This document shows, piece after piece, positions 35,921-41,405 of a stretch of 64,000 nucleotides of DNA; the stretch's first letter is position 1, and each line of letters starts with the position of its first letter. A program made the position numbers and the translations under genes. Source of the DNA: Pseudobdellovibrionaceae bacterium (GTDB lineage: Bacteria; Bdellovibrionota; Bdellovibrionia; Bdellovibrionales; Bdellovibrionaceae). The notes under the pieces are model-generated. The model saw only the letters and a list, made by a program, of their open reading frames with translations. It did no database searches and was not told where the DNA came from. The stretch is taken from contig CANFQX010000006.1 in NCBI GenBank assembly GCA_947449255.1, positions 62,001 through 126,000 of the forward strand, given 5' to 3'.

Positions 35921-36754
35921 TTAGCCCAAAAGCTTCATCGCTAGCTGCTGCGACTGATTCGCTTGTCCAAGTACTGAAACACCTGCTTGTAGCAATATAT
36001 TACTTCTTGTCATTTCAGAAGTTTCTGATGCTACGTCTGTGTCACGAATCCGTGAATTTGCGGCCGACAAGTTTTCGTCAGCAACCAACAAATTGCTTGA
36101 AGTGGATTGCAATCTATTTTGCAAGGCACCCAAGTTCGCACGAATCGCGTTCACTGAGGTCAAGGCTGTATCAATGGTTCCCAAGCTGAGCTGAGCACTA
36201 TTCTTTGAGCTTACCGTCTCTGCAGACAAACCCAGAGCTTCCAATGAAGCATTTGCTGCGCCTGAATCGAAACTGATTCGATCTTGAAATGCATCGTTAT
36301 GCACGCCAACTTGTATGTCCATTTTTCCGCCAGTTCCATTCAGCAGATCATAACCATTGAAGTTTGTTGATTCAGTGATTCGCTGAACCTCTGACTTCAA
36401 TTGTTGATACTCCACGTCCAAGAACCCTCTTTCAGTGTCTCCTAAAGTATCAGAAGAGGCTTGAACACCTAACTCCCTCAAACGAATGAGCATGTTAGAA
36501 ACTTCGGTCAAACCACCCTCAGCAACTTGCACTAAGGAAATACCATCGTTGGCATTTCTATTTGCTTGTCTCAATCCGCGAATTTGACCTTTTAGTCTTT
36601 CGCTGATCGCAAGTCCCGCAGCATCATCTGAAGCTTGATTAATTCTATTTCCAGAGGCCAATCTTGCCATTGAACGGTCAGCGGTTATGCGATTTGCATA
36701 AAGAGTCCTCTGCGCATTCAAAGCCGTGATATTTGTTCCAATTCGTAATCCCAT
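35921..36754 (-). CDS. fliC: Flagellin (copy 1)
   Basis: 277 aa from ATG 36754, fixed by GGGAGG 7 nt upstream; a longer in-frame opening lacks flagellin homology. The conserved D0/D1 N-terminus (MGLRIGTNITALNAQRTLYA, LASGNRINQASDDAAGLAI) and C-terminus (IRDTDVASETSEMTRSNILL, GVSVLGQANQSQQLAMKLL) are complete, with a short central domain, so it is a minimal flagellin without D2/D3. It is about as long as the short flagellins of Bdellovibrio. Followed by its own terminator and separated from flagellin copy 2 by 530 nt. Confidence 0.96.
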   Translation of the reverse strand: MGLRIGTNITALNAQRTLYANRITADRSMARLASGNRINQASDDAAGLAISERLKGQIRGLRQANRNANDGISLVQVAEGGLTEVSNMLIRLRELGVQASSDTLGDTERGFLDVEYQQLKSEVQRITESTNFNGYDLLNGTGGKMDIQVGVHNDAFQDRISFDSGAANASLEALGLSAETVSSKNSAQLSLGTIDTALTSVNAIRANLGALQNRLQSTSSNLLVADENLSAANSRIRDTDVASETSEMTRSNILLQAGVSVLGQANQSQQLAMKLLG

Positions 36755-37109
36755 TCTATCCTCCCTGCATAAGTTTCTTCCTCCGTGAAGTTTAGCCATC
36801 CATTGGCCGAAGGCGCGATCCGTGCGCCCGTTAGTTAATAATATGGAGCCCACTTAAAATTAATTATGAGTTATGCTCCGCTCATTTATTCGACAAAAAA
36901 CGTGAACTTCTTGAGTCCAGTTTTATTTATTTTTCTTTTTTTATTTAATTATTTTATTTATCAACAGACATTAAAAATGCCATGAATGATGATCAGTGAA
37001 GATCACATGAAGGCTCAGAAATTAAAAAAATTTCTGGCGAAAACTTTGTTTTCAATAAAATCAAATCGACGCACATAGAATGCATCTTCTTAATTCAAAA
37101 AAATATTTT
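36755..37109. promoter_or_regulatory. Leader and promoter region of flagellin copy 1
   Basis: This stretch, continuing to the copy 2 terminator, has no plausible gene. It holds a GGCGC/GCGCC hairpin (about 36814-36830) in the probable 5' leader, a very T-rich stretch (36918-36960), and a perfect CAGAAATT/AATTTCTG hairpin with five-A loop (37016-37036). No clear sigma-28 promoter could be picked out. Confidence 0.45.
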
Positions 37110-37145
37110 ATCAATAAAAGTGGCCGCCATAAAAATGGCGACCAC
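37110..37145 (-). terminator. Rho-independent terminator after flagellin copy 2
   Basis: On the minus strand GTGG.CGCCAT / ATGGCG.CCAC (37120-37145, one mismatch) is followed by TTTTATTG. It lies about 140 nt beyond the stop of flagellin copy 2. Confidence 0.7.
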
Positions 37146-37171
37146 GATCGCAGGAAACAGATCGTTGTCAG

Positions 37172-37290
37172 CTCTAATATAGAGCTTTTCGGACTACACC
37201 AGAACCACCACTTGGGCAGTTCTTATGAGGGTGATCTTGTGTTATAGGCAAGATCGTAAACCATCGTCATTTAAAGGTTAATAATTAACC
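37172..37290 (-). other. Structured 3' region of flagellin copy 2
   Basis: Three further inverted repeats precede the terminator: GGTTAAT.ATTAACC (37276-37290, overlapping the stop codon), GATCTTG/CAAGATC (about 37232-37254), and AGCTCTA.ATA.TAGAGCT (about 37173-37189). They suggest a folded 3' UTR, perhaps stabilising the abundant flagellin mRNA. Confidence 0.5.
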
Positions 37291-38133
37291 TTGGAATGAC
37301 TTGTTCAAGAGTCCAAGTGCTACATTTGCTTGTTGGTTCGCCTGTGCTAGTACACTAGTACCTGCTTGCAACAAAATATTATTTCTAGTCATTTCTGATG
37401 TCTCTTCAGCTATGTCCACATCTCTAATACGAGAGTTTGCAGCTGACATATTTTCCATAGACACTTGAATGTTCGAAACTGTCGATTGGAGACGATTTTG
37501 AATCGCACCAAAATCAGCTCGCATTGCGGAAACACTGACGATGGCTTGATCTATCGCTGCAAGCGCATTTTGCGCCGAAGCTTTATCTGCCACCGAAGTC
37601 AGATTCACGCCTAGAGCCGCTGAATTTGCATCGGCTTTAGAAGCATCGAATGAGATTCGATCAATTTCAGGATTATTTCTAGTCCCGACTTGGAAGTCCA
37701 AGATTGATCCGACACCCGCAAGCAACTGAGTTCCATTGAACTCTGTTCCTTCTGAGATACGATCGACCTCTGAAACTAGCTGATCATATTCCACATTAAG
37801 GAACTGACGCTCTGTCGGTCCGACGGTATCAGAAGCAGCTTGCACTGACAACTCTCTCAGACGAATGAGGATCCCAGAGATCTCATTCATCGATCCCTCG
37901 GCCACTTGCACCAGAGAGATACCATCTTGAGCATTTCTTGAAGCTTGCTTTAGACCATGAACCTGAGCTTTTAAATTCTCAGAGATCGCTAATCCTGCAG
38001 CATCATCGCCTGCTCTGTTAATTCGGAAACCTGATGCTAGCTTTTCCATGCTCTTATCAAGTCCTGCCTTCGTACCCCAGAGTACCCTCTGGGCATTTAA
38101 CGAAGCTGTATTCGTATTAATGCGCAAACCCAT
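37285..38133 (-). CDS. fliC: Flagellin (copy 2)
   Basis: 282 aa from ATG 38133, marked by AAGGAGGAGG 6 nt upstream. The N-terminus (MGLRINTNTASLNAQRVLWG, LASGFRINRAGDDAAGLAI) and C-terminus (IRDVDIAEETSEMTRNNILL, GTSVLAQANQQANVALGLL) are typical. It is clearly paralogous to copy 1 but diverged in the centre, so it is not a recent duplication. A palindrome and a sigma-28-like -10 element lie upstream. Confidence 0.96.
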   Translation of the reverse strand: MGLRINTNTASLNAQRVLWGTKAGLDKSMEKLASGFRINRAGDDAAGLAISENLKAQVHGLKQASRNAQDGISLVQVAEGSMNEISGILIRLRELSVQAASDTVGPTERQFLNVEYDQLVSEVDRISEGTEFNGTQLLAGVGSILDFQVGTRNNPEIDRISFDASKADANSAALGVNLTSVADKASAQNALAAIDQAIVSVSAMRADFGAIQNRLQSTVSNIQVSMENMSAANSRIRDVDIAEETSEMTRNNILLQAGTSVLAQANQQANVALGLLNKSFQG

Positions 38134-38224
38134 ATTTCCTCCTCCTTGAAGATTTGCTGAGTTTCTATCCTTGAAACTCAGGACACCAACCATGATGTCG
38201 ATGGGCAATTCGTTCTTAGCCTAC

Positions 38225-38298: not shown

Positions 38299-38320
38299 AA
38301 GGTACCTTTTTGCCACTCGC
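38299..38320 (-). repeat. REP-like element, copy A (short)
   Basis: Read on the minus strand: GCGAGTGGC, five As, then GGTACCTT. It shares GAGTG.CAAAAAGGTAC with copies B and C but lacks the inner GGCGTAC, so its palindrome is the bare GGTACC. It lies 8 nt beyond the stop of the REP-associated transposase gene. Confidence 0.65.
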
Positions 38321-38327
38321 TGCGTTA

Positions 38328-38966
38328 CTAGACAATATTGTCTTCCAAAAAGTGAATTCGCTGAGTTGTTTCATCTCGAGGAAATGAAAACTCTGCTCTA
38401 CGAAGCGCATATCGAATAGCTGCTTGCATTTCAGGCTGATACTCTTCATTCAGCCAAGCCAACTGTTTGTGAGGATTGTGTATGAGATGTAAATTGTCAT
38501 AGGCCGGAATATGAAGATATTCCAAGCCCAACAACCCCCTCAGCGTACTGTAGGGATAGTCTTGGACCGTATCGGAAAGCCCCGCATGAATTGGATTTCG
38601 ATAGATATATTTATAGGCATGATGATAATGCACGGAATTCTTAATGACAGTCCAGTGGTATGGACCTCCAAATATTTGATTTATTCGACCAGATTTTTCT
38701 CCAATTCGTTTGCTAACCTCCCTTAATAAATAATTCATTGCTATATCAAGATTTCCACTTGGAGTCGTAATGAGCATATGAAAGTGATTGCTCATCAGAA
38801 CAAAGCTATGAATTCGGACATCATAAACTCGCCATATGAAATGAAGGTAGTCGGCAAAGACACACCATACGTACTCAATGGGCACTCCAAACCACTCTTT
38901 ATTGGTTGTTCTGGCCGTGACATGATAGGGAAACTCAGTGGTTCGATAAAATTTTTTTCTAGGCAT
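38328..38966 (-). CDS. REP-associated tyrosine transposase (RAYT, Y1/HUH family)
   Basis: 212 aa from ATG 38966 (a longer frame begins at 38996). The IS200-like Y1 core is intact: YHVTARTTNKEWF, the HUH motif in MSNHFHMLITTP (around residue 65), and the catalytic-Tyr helix region HHAYKYIYRNPIHAGL. These single-strand nucleases act on REP palindromes and are usually single-copy and domesticated, without IS ends. Here it is flanked by two inverted copies of a palindromic element (38299 and 39122), the arrangement expected of a REP/RAYT unit. Confidence 0.9.
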   Translation of the reverse strand: MPRKKFYRTTEFPYHVTARTTNKEWFGVPIEYVWCVFADYLHFIWRVYDVRIHSFVLMSNHFHMLITTPSGNLDIAMNYLLREVSKRIGEKSGRINQIFGGPYHWTVIKNSVHYHHAYKYIYRNPIHAGLSDTVQDYPYSTLRGLLGLEYLHIPAYDNLHLIHNPHKQLAWLNEEYQPEMQAAIRYALRRAEFSFPRDETTQRIHFLEDNIV

Positions 38967-39118
38967 ATCCCGGGTGTACATCAATCTATGGGCCAACCCT
39001 TGCTGGTCTTCACTATGGGTAGGTGGCCTTATTTAATTCCGAAGTCCGGTCTGGCACACAGTTGACAGACAATACATCAAGTTCGATAAACTATTCATTC
39101 AGAGCCAAAAATTATTCG

Positions 39119-39146
39119 GCGTGTGGCAAAAAGGTACGGCGTACCT
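39119..39146 (+). repeat. REP-like element, copy B
   Basis: GTGTGGC followed by AAAAAGGTACGGCGTACC. Its orientation is opposite to copy A, and the pair encloses the transposase gene. It ends 1 nt before the GGAGG of the HD-domain gene, so it sits in that gene's leader. Confidence 0.7.
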
Positions 39147-39156
39147 CGGAGGATTA

Positions 39157-40473
39157 ATGGAAATTCGGGATCCTGTTCATGGTTCGATTTATTATGCTGA
39201 TCCTGAGGTTGCAATTCTTGAGACGGCTGAGTATCAAAGACTCCGAGCAATCAAGCAGCTTGGCTTTTCTGAGTTTAGCTTTCCTGGAGCCACTCACAAC
39301 CGTTATATTCATTCCATTGGCGTAGCCCATTTAGCAACCTTGGTGTTTGAGTCTATATTTAGAGTCTATCCTTTTTCAAAACCCGCAAATAAGGCTAGAT
39401 TTAAGCAAACCGTTCGCTTAGCAGCACTTCTGCACGACGTTGGTCATGGCCCCTTAAGCCATACAACAGAACAGGTGATGCCCCAACTTTCTGATCTTCA
39501 AATAAAAGTTTACGACGAAGAAGAACAATATGGCGATGCCACTCACATGGTCATGTATAAAAATCGCAAGGCTAATCATGAAGATTACACTATTAAATAC
39601 GTCACCGACTCCACAATCGCGGATACAATAAAAAAACAATTTTCTGATATTTTACCCATTCATGTGGCTTGCCTCATCGATAAGGCCCTTCACTGTCCTG
39701 ATGATTTTTTTATTGAGGGTGGCGTTGACCTTCGGCCCATACTTTCACAACTTATTAGCAGCGAAATTGATGCGGATCGAATGGATTATCTTGATCGAGA
39801 TTCCTATTTTTGTGGAACAAACTATGGGAAAATTGATTCTAATTGGCTGATTCAGAATATGACTTTTCATCGCGTAGAAAATCAACTTTTTTTAGCAATG
39901 AATCGTCGTGCACTCTATTCCTTCGATGATTTTTTAATTTCCCGCCATCATATGCATTTAATGGTTTATGGCCATCATAAAAGTATTATCTATGAAGAAA
40001 TGCTTAACCGCTATTTGACATCTCCTGAGTGCACTTTCAAACTTCCAGGCGATATCAACGAATACACAAACTACAATGACTATCGGCTCCACGAGCACCT
40101 CAGAAGTGCTTCTAGCCCTTGGGCGCGCCGAATTGCAGAACGCAGACCTTTTAAGGTCTTACTCGAACAACACAATACGACGGAGTCCGAACGCCCCGAG
40201 TTTATGAAGAAAATATTGGAAAATGAAGGCCTTGAGGTTATTTGGGCCAGCTCTAAGGCGCGTTTATCAAAATATCATACGGCCTCTCCCGAGGAACGAG
40301 CTGCCCAGATCTTTGTCGTGGATCAATTTGACCCTTGGAGCAAACCAACACCAATCAATCAATCCACCGAAATTTTCAAACGATATGAGGGCACACGCAT
40401 CATTGATCGAATTTATGTGGCTCCTGAAGAATTCGTGAATGCTGAAAAAATTTTCAAATCTATGAAATTTTAG
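39157..40473 (+). CDS. HD superfamily phosphohydrolase
   Basis: 438 aa. ATG 39157 with GGAGG 6 nt upstream begins MEIRDPVHGSIYY, a typical opening of the YwfO/SAMHD1-like HD family; the upstream in-frame GTG would translate the REP element. The HD metal motif is RLAALLHDVGHGPLSHTTEQ (~95-115), followed by EIDADRMDYLDRDSYF (~205-220). Members act as dNTP triphosphohydrolases or related phosphohydrolases. The element in its leader may affect expression. Confidence 0.9.
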   Translation: MEIRDPVHGSIYYADPEVAILETAEYQRLRAIKQLGFSEFSFPGATHNRYIHSIGVAHLATLVFESIFRVYPFSKPANKARFKQTVRLAALLHDVGHGPLSHTTEQVMPQLSDLQIKVYDEEEQYGDATHMVMYKNRKANHEDYTIKYVTDSTIADTIKKQFSDILPIHVACLIDKALHCPDDFFIEGGVDLRPILSQLISSEIDADRMDYLDRDSYFCGTNYGKIDSNWLIQNMTFHRVENQLFLAMNRRALYSFDDFLISRHHMHLMVYGHHKSIIYEEMLNRYLTSPECTFKLPGDINEYTNYNDYRLHEHLRSASSPWARRIAERRPFKVLLEQHNTTESERPEFMKKILENEGLEVIWASSKARLSKYHTASPEERAAQIFVVDQFDPWSKPTPINQSTEIFKRYEGTRIIDRIYVAPEEFVNAEKIFKSMKF

Positions 40474-40485
40474 GTCAATTTGATT

Positions 40486-40535
40486 TTGAAAAAAACCATA
40501 TAAGCGCCTCCTCGAAGGAAGTACTTATATGGTTT
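40486..40535 (-). terminator. Long-stem terminator between HD and SDR genes
   Basis: Perfect 12-bp arms AAACCATATAAG / CTTATATGGTTT (40493-40535) enclose a loop that itself can pair (TCCT.CGA.AGGA). On the minus strand the stem runs into seven Ts, so it terminates the SDR gene. On the plus strand it follows the HD gene without a T-run. Confidence 0.75.
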
Positions 40536-40559
40536 AGATGTTACTAGTAAGTGTGATCC

Positions 40560-41333
40560 CTATGACAATTCAAAATTTTGTCCATTTAATGTGGCCCCCA
40601 TGGGGCTCACTATAAATGCGACTGTCTGTGAAACCTTATCGGCCTCAGTGACTTTCATGTAAGGATCAATAACCTTGATCTTTTCCATTGCCTCTTTGAT
40701 CGTTTTTGAATCTGGGTCATGAGCTAAAATATACTCTTCAGTCAAAGCAATCGACAAAGTATTCACAGTGACATTAAACTCGCTGGCCTGTCTAGCTAAA
40801 GCTTTCGAAAAATTGATAAGACCTGACCGAACCGCGGCCCCTACGATATCTAATTTTATTTTGGCCGCTGGAGATTGATTTAATAAATAAATAACTCGAC
40901 CTCTCTTGCGACTTTTCAAATAAGCCATCACATTTTGAGTTAACATCAGTGGCAACTTCAGATGCTTGTCAATTAAGCCATCATAGTTTTCAATCGATCC
41001 ATCATAGCTCATGGGTGTTGGTCCTTGAATCATCAAGGCATCAATGAAAATGTCTAAGCCACCAAAAGACTGTGCGGCCCTTCCAACGGCATCCTTAACA
41101 TCCTCAGCAGTTTTGAAATCACTCTGAATAACCATTGCTCGCCCAAATTTACTATTCACTTCATGACCATCATTAATTTGGTTAATGAAAGATGATAAAA
41201 CGGACTTATCGGGATCAAGAATGACACAATCAGCACCCAATCGAGTGAGACTTAAAACAATGCTAGCAACCGTTGTTGACATTGGACCTGCAATCAAAAC
41301 GACTCGTTGATGCAAGTTCATAATATTTTCCAT
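40560..41333 (-). CDS. Short-chain dehydrogenase/reductase-like protein with degenerate active site
   Basis: About 257 aa from ATG 41333 (GTG 41342 and ATG 41318 are equally weak starts). The Rossmann order is kept: VVLIAGPMSTTVASIVLSL, IQSDFKTAEDVKDAV, GGLDIFIDALMIQG, RGRVIYLLNQSP, FNVTVNTLSIAL. The TGxxxGxG cofactor loop has become AGPMSTTV. The Tyr-xxx-Lys catalytic pair aligns to IVGAAVRSGL with neither residue present. A cofactor-poor, non-catalytic or highly divergent role is likely. A REP-like element and a thiolase remnant lie just upstream. Confidence 0.75.
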   Translation of the reverse strand: MENIMNLHQRVVLIAGPMSTTVASIVLSLTRLGADCVILDPDKSVLSSFINQINDGHEVNSKFGRAMVIQSDFKTAEDVKDAVGRAAQSFGGLDIFIDALMIQGPTPMSYDGSIENYDGLIDKHLKLPLMLTQNVMAYLKSRKRGRVIYLLNQSPAAKIKLDIVGAAVRSGLINFSKALARQASEFNVTVNTLSIALTEEYILAHDPDSKTIKEAMEKIKVIDPYMKVTEADKVSQTVAFIVSPMGATLNGQNFELS

Positions 41334-41370
41334 GAAATTCACTTTCTTTCAGCCCTTTGATTATTTTTTT

Positions 41371-41405
41371 GACACACCGAGTGTCAAAAAGGTACGGCGT
41401 ACCTT
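41371..41405 (+). repeat. REP-like element, copy C
   Basis: GACAC.ACCGA.GTGTC hairpin, then AAAAAGGTACGGCGTACC and TTA. It is the fullest of the three copies. It lies between the SDR start and the stop codon of the thiolase remnant, 2.2 kb from copy B. Confidence 0.7.

Follow-up and report, generated by a model that had tools for sequence, protein, structure and literature searches.

The window, by which we mean the whole 64,000-nucleotide stretch of DNA that was analysed, very probably carries a Bdellovibrio REPtron, a locus at which a single HUH nuclease would act in trans on its cognate repeats, moving or rewriting them at slots that are used again and again. The nuclease gene, a RAYT, lies between the inverted copies A and B of a short element, and a third copy, C, lies 2.2 kb away (Table 1). 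The first-pass annotation had proposed a single-copy Y1 RAYT enclosed by A and B, three elements with a common motif, a contracted copy A with GGTACC, and positions of B and C just 5' of gene starts, all of which were borne out; it added that B and C may also affect expression. Exactly one Y1_Tnp gene, the window's RAYT, was found in the window's genome (G000; 3,210,094 bases, 3.21 Mb, on 34 contigs), both brackets were recovered, and the motif exceeds chance in the window as well as in the genome.

Table 1 Features of the RAYT locus, in window coordinates
Feature	Position	Strand	Sequence	Basis or remark
Flagellin gene	37285..38208	(-)		Conserved neighbour, other side of the unit
Copy A	38301-38327	(-)	TAACGCAGCGAGTGGCAAAAAGGTACC	Contracted; sequence and match to the genome-wide consensus
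RAYT gene, HUH/Y1 nuclease	38328..38966	(-)		Pfam Y1_Tnp, 4ER8, 25-homologue alignment, AF2 model
Copy B	39112-39146	(+)	TTATTCGGCGTGTGGCAAAAAGGTACGGCGTACCT	Full element, inverted relative to A
HD-domain hydrolase gene	39157..40473	(+)		Conserved neighbour; locus comparison in 24 genomes
Copy C	41370-41404	(+)	TGACACACCGAGTGTCAAAAAGGTACGGCGTACCT	Full element

The RAYT protein

The RAYT comprises 212 aa from the conserved MPRK at 38966, which, by the alignment of 25 homologues, is most likely its start in place of the TTG at 38996, from which residues are numbered here. It matches Pfam Y1_Tnp (PF01797) with 25.7 bits, above the cut-off of 23, and NCBIfam REP_Tyr_transpos (NF047646) with 64.3 bits, below the curated cut-off of 80. 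N70-H71-F72-H73 forms the HUH motif, and the catalytic Y130 stands in Y---NP (Y130-I-Y-R-N-P); in the 25 homologues NHFH is intact and nearly invariant and Y130 is invariant. TnpA-REP 4ER8 is the only solved relative found by sequence (E 5e-9). It is also the best fold match of an AlphaFold (AF2) model built with 25 family sequences as input (pLDDT 90), with a Foldseek E of 3e-9 and a VIA Z of 16.1 over 157 residues (rmsd 2.9), and the IS608 fold scores far lower (VIA Z 9.8). We disregarded the Foldseek and VIA matches to Thg1, ribosomal S6 and viral Rep as due to a common ferredoxin-like fold.

In E. coli TnpA-REP, the residues that contact GTAG are W94, Q95, E100 and H101 (PMC6006769). Aligned to 4ER8, the RAYT has F, G, a gap, T and K at the positions of W94, Q95, E100, H101 and R104; the GTAG residues are not conserved, in keeping with an element that lacks GTAG. 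Neither a GTAG nor a GGAG foot was found at the base of the palindrome, where GNGTGGC-AAAAA precedes the stem. Because no class tabulated in PMC6006769 matches its HUH, W and Y signatures exactly, we claim no published subclass for the RAYT. The initial REP/RAYT reading is largely right with regard to the Y1/HUH protein, 4ER8 as its nearest relative, the inverted brackets and the dispersed repeat, but does not extend to a REP of the GTAG type, and it is qualified by the NCBIfam score of 64 against 80 and by a population of only 31 copies.

The element and its population in the genome

Within the window, AAAAAGGTAC occurs three times against 0.20 expected, a count that 0 of 100 shuffles reached. 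Aligned G000 sites define a 35-nt unit, TAAYGC-NNY-GNGTGGC-AAAAA-GGTACGGCGTACC(T), whose information content stands out sharply between -21 and +13 around GGTAC and drops to background beyond these limits in three independent genomes; the unit is longer than described at first pass. Copy A begins right after the RAYT stop codon and has lost 7 bp between two GTAC repeats, leaving GGTACC in place of GGTACGGCGTACC, and the palindrome is shortened or altered in a few other copies as well. A left element orthologous to copy A was found in the six genomes of the genus that possess the RAYT. The end of copy B lies 1 nt ahead of the GGAGG that serves the HD gene as ribosome site; this gene starts not at the GTG inside copy B but at ATG 39157, a start that aligns in 24/24 genomes. 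REPs are defined as palindromic, extragenic, multi-copy sequences of 20-40 nt, and the unit agrees with this definition at 35 nt with a 5-bp stem and a 3-nt loop. As DNA, the palindrome of a single element folds weakly (about -2.6 kcal/mol), and copies of the form AAAAA-stem-TTTTT fold at -7.1 kcal/mol. We rejected a stable fold of the whole element, as only the 5-bp stem is general among the copies; copy C has a further stem on its 5' side (GACAC..GTGTC), which the other copies lack.

Across the whole G000 genome, the 31 true sites of YGNGTGNCAAAAAGGTAC are spread over 13 contigs, and AAAAAGGTACGGCGTACC with up to two mismatches gives 37 matches, which include both strands of some single palindromes, versus 0 for the reversed control. 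REPs typically number more than 100 copies, and 31 is modest. Outside ORFs of at least 70 aa (mechanical calls, not curated genes) lie 28 of the 31 copies, in both orientations and often with the palindrome side 0-50 nt from a stop or start codon. In reverse orientation, many follow a stop codon by 0-20 nt, and about as many are found 5' of starts in the other. The G000 copies are singlets or direct tandems, with no inverted dimers of the REPIN kind among the 31, and inverted dimers of the element are present in the relatives G010, G018 and G025. Two repeat-rich islands of G000 (L062, C24:1-5100; L063, C33) contain 150-250 bp units repeated 3-6 times and toxin-antitoxin-like small ORFs together with 8 of the 31 elements, several of which share longer flanks and so were probably spread by duplication of the larger unit.

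Co-occurrence of element and RAYT in the genus

The HD neighbour was located in 24/24 genomes of the genus and the locus compared. Between flagellin and HD, the RAYT and its inverted elements are present in six (G000, G010, G018, G020, G024 and G025; the right-hand element of G025 is disrupted), and neither was found there in the other 18. One gene at the same locus in six species is not the pattern of an autonomous multi-copy IS200/IS605 element. The window has two tandem flagellin genes adjoining the unit (35921-38208), the nearer of which is kept here in most of the genus. The sisters G020 and G021 share 86% DNA identity at the locus; G021 has lost the RAYT and retains decayed brackets (GATACGCCGCACCCTTTTGAATTGCAGTGCGCCA) and about 14 dispersed matches. 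The left bracket of G020 (L246) lies within the end of the upstream gene, where it encodes RYAVPF and the stop, and this RYAVPF reading survives at the end of the upstream gene in G021 (L278) after the loss of the RAYT.

Matches to an 18-mer core were counted with one mismatch allowed, such that palindromes with A-runs on both sides may count twice, and G000 was entered with its 31 distinct sites. The six RAYT-bearing genomes have 11-37 matches, and the 18 others have 0, 0, 0, 0, 0, 0, 0, 1, 0, 1, 0, 0, 6, 6, 22, 14, 1 and 5, i.e., mostly 0 or 1 (Mann-Whitney p 2.3e-4, with no phylogenetic correction for genomes that share ancestry). For instance, 32 matches were counted in G018, against 1-6 in its close sisters without the RAYT, G013, G016 and G023. 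As a counterpoint, G021, G019, G017 and G016 keep 6-22 matches without an orthologous RAYT, and we read all four as cases of recent loss. G019 and G021 are drafts of more than 500 contigs; given this fragmentation and tags like those of RAYT-bearing relatives, recent loss of the RAYT is the simplest reading for these two. The scan of the genome and its relatives proposed at first pass returned 31 dispersed sites in G000 and a copy number that follows the orthologous RAYT. Neither of the two outcomes named beforehand as contrary was seen: the copy number is far above chance, and the element, which might instead have been abundant without the RAYT at a fixed distance from promoters, tracks the RAYT and occurs in both orientations at varied distances.

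Lineage tags at orthologous sites

From genome to genome the palindrome and A-run stay the same, and the nucleotides just 5' of them vary. We refer to the 6-7 nt before the palindrome and A-run as the tag, which reads GNGTGGC in G000, GCAATTC or GCGTTTC in G024, GCACTTC or GCAATTC in G020, GCACCCCC in G018, GCACTCC in G010, GAGCCTC plus GCATCGC in G025 and GCATCCG in G017. Leave-one-out tests on the 9 nt before the A-run traced the copy to the right genome in 116 of 138 cases (chance about 22%), and the copies that bracket the RAYT bear the tag of their own genome.

By comparison of flanks, 19 sites are common to at least two genomes. The copy C site is occupied in five, each with its own tag (GAGTGTC in G000, GCATCCG in G017, GCACCCCC in G018, GCACCCC in G019 and GCACTTC in G020). 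At orthologous sites the own tag beat the partner's in 67 of 73 comparisons, which 0 of 2000 permutations matched; RAYT brackets were excluded here and each tag profile was built without the site under test. Upstream of trmO (L318-L341), an intact or decayed element stands in the same register behind TTGACGC in 23/24 genomes, with differing tags. TTGACGC itself, at the 5' edge of the element, is invariant in 24/24 genus genomes and may be a -35 box that the element forms or adjoins, in which case the register at trmO could also be held by promoter selection.

Slots and their re-use

Thirteen G018 sites were sought in the RAYT-less sisters G013, G016 and G023. Alignment revealed empty sites for L205 in all three sisters and for L213 and L218 in G016 and G023, and the remaining slots hold decayed elements or other sequence. 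Compared with the repeats that flank the other RAYTs of G013, G016 and G023, 6 of 29 sister slots hold a repeat of one of the sister's own other RAYTs, as against 0 of 779 control windows at the same loci; one example is AAAAGGCGCCAGCCGGTT of G023, at a slot where G018 has the window-type element. The slot thus outlasts its occupant, and both the occupant and its tag change with whichever RAYT is resident. Such turnover could come about by repeated insertion at permissive gaps or by conversion in place. In G018, L213 and L218 are composites: a window-type element is fused to a repeat of the GGTGCCAGGTCC type, which belongs to another RAYT family, and the composite is inserted at an intergenic gap of near zero length (CAT/TAG).

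RAYT loci in the wider Bdellovibrionota

REP/RAYT systems have been described mostly in Gammaproteobacteria. Our literature search on Bdellovibrio with RAYT/REP or palindromic repeats returned nothing relevant, and the published RAYT surveys that we compared make no mention of Bdellovibrio. Inverted repeats with a score of at least 17 surround 49 of 60 scorable Bdellovibrionota RAYT loci and 0 of 46 control genes. Their common outward layout is a tag, an A-run or AAAAG, and last a block with GTACC or GCACC at its end; among 20 arms examined, this block is palindromic solely in the window's subclade, with a terminal stem of 1-2 bp elsewhere. In a second clade (RAYT of G003, L074), the non-palindromic CAAAAGTAAGCAGGTACC has 23-30 dispersed matches per genome in G003, G006, G009 and G010, including 16 inverted pairs at exactly 49 bp from start to start. 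CAAAAGTAAGCAGGTACC makes up a REPIN-like Bdellovibrio population whose monomer is not palindromic; in this phylum, therefore, a repeat can form a dispersed population even if its monomer has no palindrome. The RAYT of G049 (L076) has HFY in place of HFH in its HUH motif and may have lost catalysis; strong inverted repeats still flank the gene.

Alternative explanations and proposed mechanism

Some of these patterns could arise without mobility. Non-mobile regulator sites, the regulator possibly being the RAYT itself, that co-evolve by point mutation would explain conserved positions at orthologous genes and the single register of the trmO element in 23/24 genomes behind its -35-like TTGACGC, and the tag changes do mimic factor-site co-evolution. 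We nevertheless consider this explanation improbable in view of elements that occur in either orientation, near starts as well as stops and at varied distances, of the clean empty slots in close sisters, of tandem and inverted dimers, and of the re-use of slots by unrelated RAYT repeats. Selection for intrinsic terminators or mRNA-end hairpins could likewise have amplified the elements independently of the RAYT, as GGTACGCCGTACC-TTTTT in reverse orientation resembles a terminator, many copies follow a stop codon within 20 nt in that orientation, and AAAAA-stem-TTTTT copies fold at the -7.1 kcal/mol given above. However, a similar number of copies precede gene starts and have the other orientation, the variable tag is left unexplained, and copy number follows the presence of the RAYT, which makes this origin very unlikely. 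Both the regulator-site and the terminator readings were rejected on gene context, which fails to fit half the copies. Equally hard to sustain is the view that the elements are what decay has left of the ends of an IS200-like transposon, once present in many copies, whose last, inactive copy is the RAYT: inverted ends do bracket the gene and it is missing from 18/24 genomes, but a single gene occupies one conserved locus in six species with catalytic residues intact, the copies are alike and show the tags now in use in their lineage, and no other transposase remnants were found in G000.

The observations comprise the unit itself, the number of its copies and their position between genes, their joint occurrence with the RAYT, differences in which sites are filled, changes of tag at orthologous sites, and the re-use of slots by other RAYT families. 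On the preferred REPtron reading, the RAYT is a single-copy, vertically inherited, domesticated nuclease of the IS200/IS605 HUH type, whose cognate repeat brackets its own gene and is scattered over intergenic gaps. The most likely mechanism would be as follows. It would recognise the element as single-stranded DNA by the fixed palindrome, the A-run and the 5' lineage tag, and its HUH/Tyr centre would cut and rejoin that strand. Elements would thereby be copied or rewritten in trans at recurring intergenic slots, through re-insertion or in-place conversion. We propose that the variable tag may act as a guide or recognition sequence. By analogy, the foot of the REP helps TnpA-REP to choose the cleavage site, and a changed foot led to a predictable change of that site in one system (PMC8266576).

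More tentatively, and with doubts of our own, slots might be conserved addresses that the resident RAYT keeps rewritten, so that drift of its specificity converts tags in place, and loss or replacement of the RAYT leads to decay or to refilling by the repeat of another resident RAYT. If so, the RAYT would be a genome-wide, sequence-specific enzyme that homogenises elements, and not only a source of new insertions. The phylum-wide set offers a natural series of presence and absence, sites that are orthologous between genomes, and a palindrome that stays the same beside a tag that can be exchanged, which makes it testable what in the RAYT reads the repeat, and whether new elements are inserted or old ones maintained.

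Comparison with known systems

The closest likeness is to the REPtron/RAYT systems of E. coli, Stenotrophomonas and Pseudomonas (PMC2817692, PMC8266576, PMC6006769), which share the single-copy class 2 Y1 HUH protein with Y---NP, inverted brackets, dispersed extragenic cognate repeats, vertical inheritance, co-evolution of RAYT and flanking REPs, and the nearest structure, 4ER8. Unlike GTAG REPs, the element has no GTAG/GGAG foot, and W94/Q95/E100/H101 are not conserved, the RAYT reading F-G-G-P-Y-H-W-T in this part. Its tag stands about 5 nt from the palindrome, and here the palindrome is fixed and the tag variable, the reverse of GTAG REPs. TIRtron/TIRYT systems (PMC3733652; mostly subclass 2.1 of PMC6006769) are similar in their Y1 protein of ~220 aa with NH[YF]H and in inverted repeats that are unrelated to GTAG REPs and moderately abundant in some species. 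The GGGGWSAS that marks most, although not all, published TIRs (PMC3733652) is absent from the element consensus, and no REP-like repeats are reported for subclass 2.1 (PMC6006769), whereas here a genome-wide repeat population tracks the gene. REPINs (PMC8049555) find a counterpart in the inverted dimers of relatives and in the second Bdellovibrio family with its 49-bp spacing, in contrast to the singlets or direct tandems of G000. IS200/IS605 elements (IS608, ISDra2) share the HUH/Y1 fold (Z 8.5-9.8), but the RAYT is not multi-copy, has Y---NP and not Y----Q, and its gene does not move as a unit. Relative to known REP/RAYT systems, the differences lie in the foot sequence, the palindrome and the mode of divergence.
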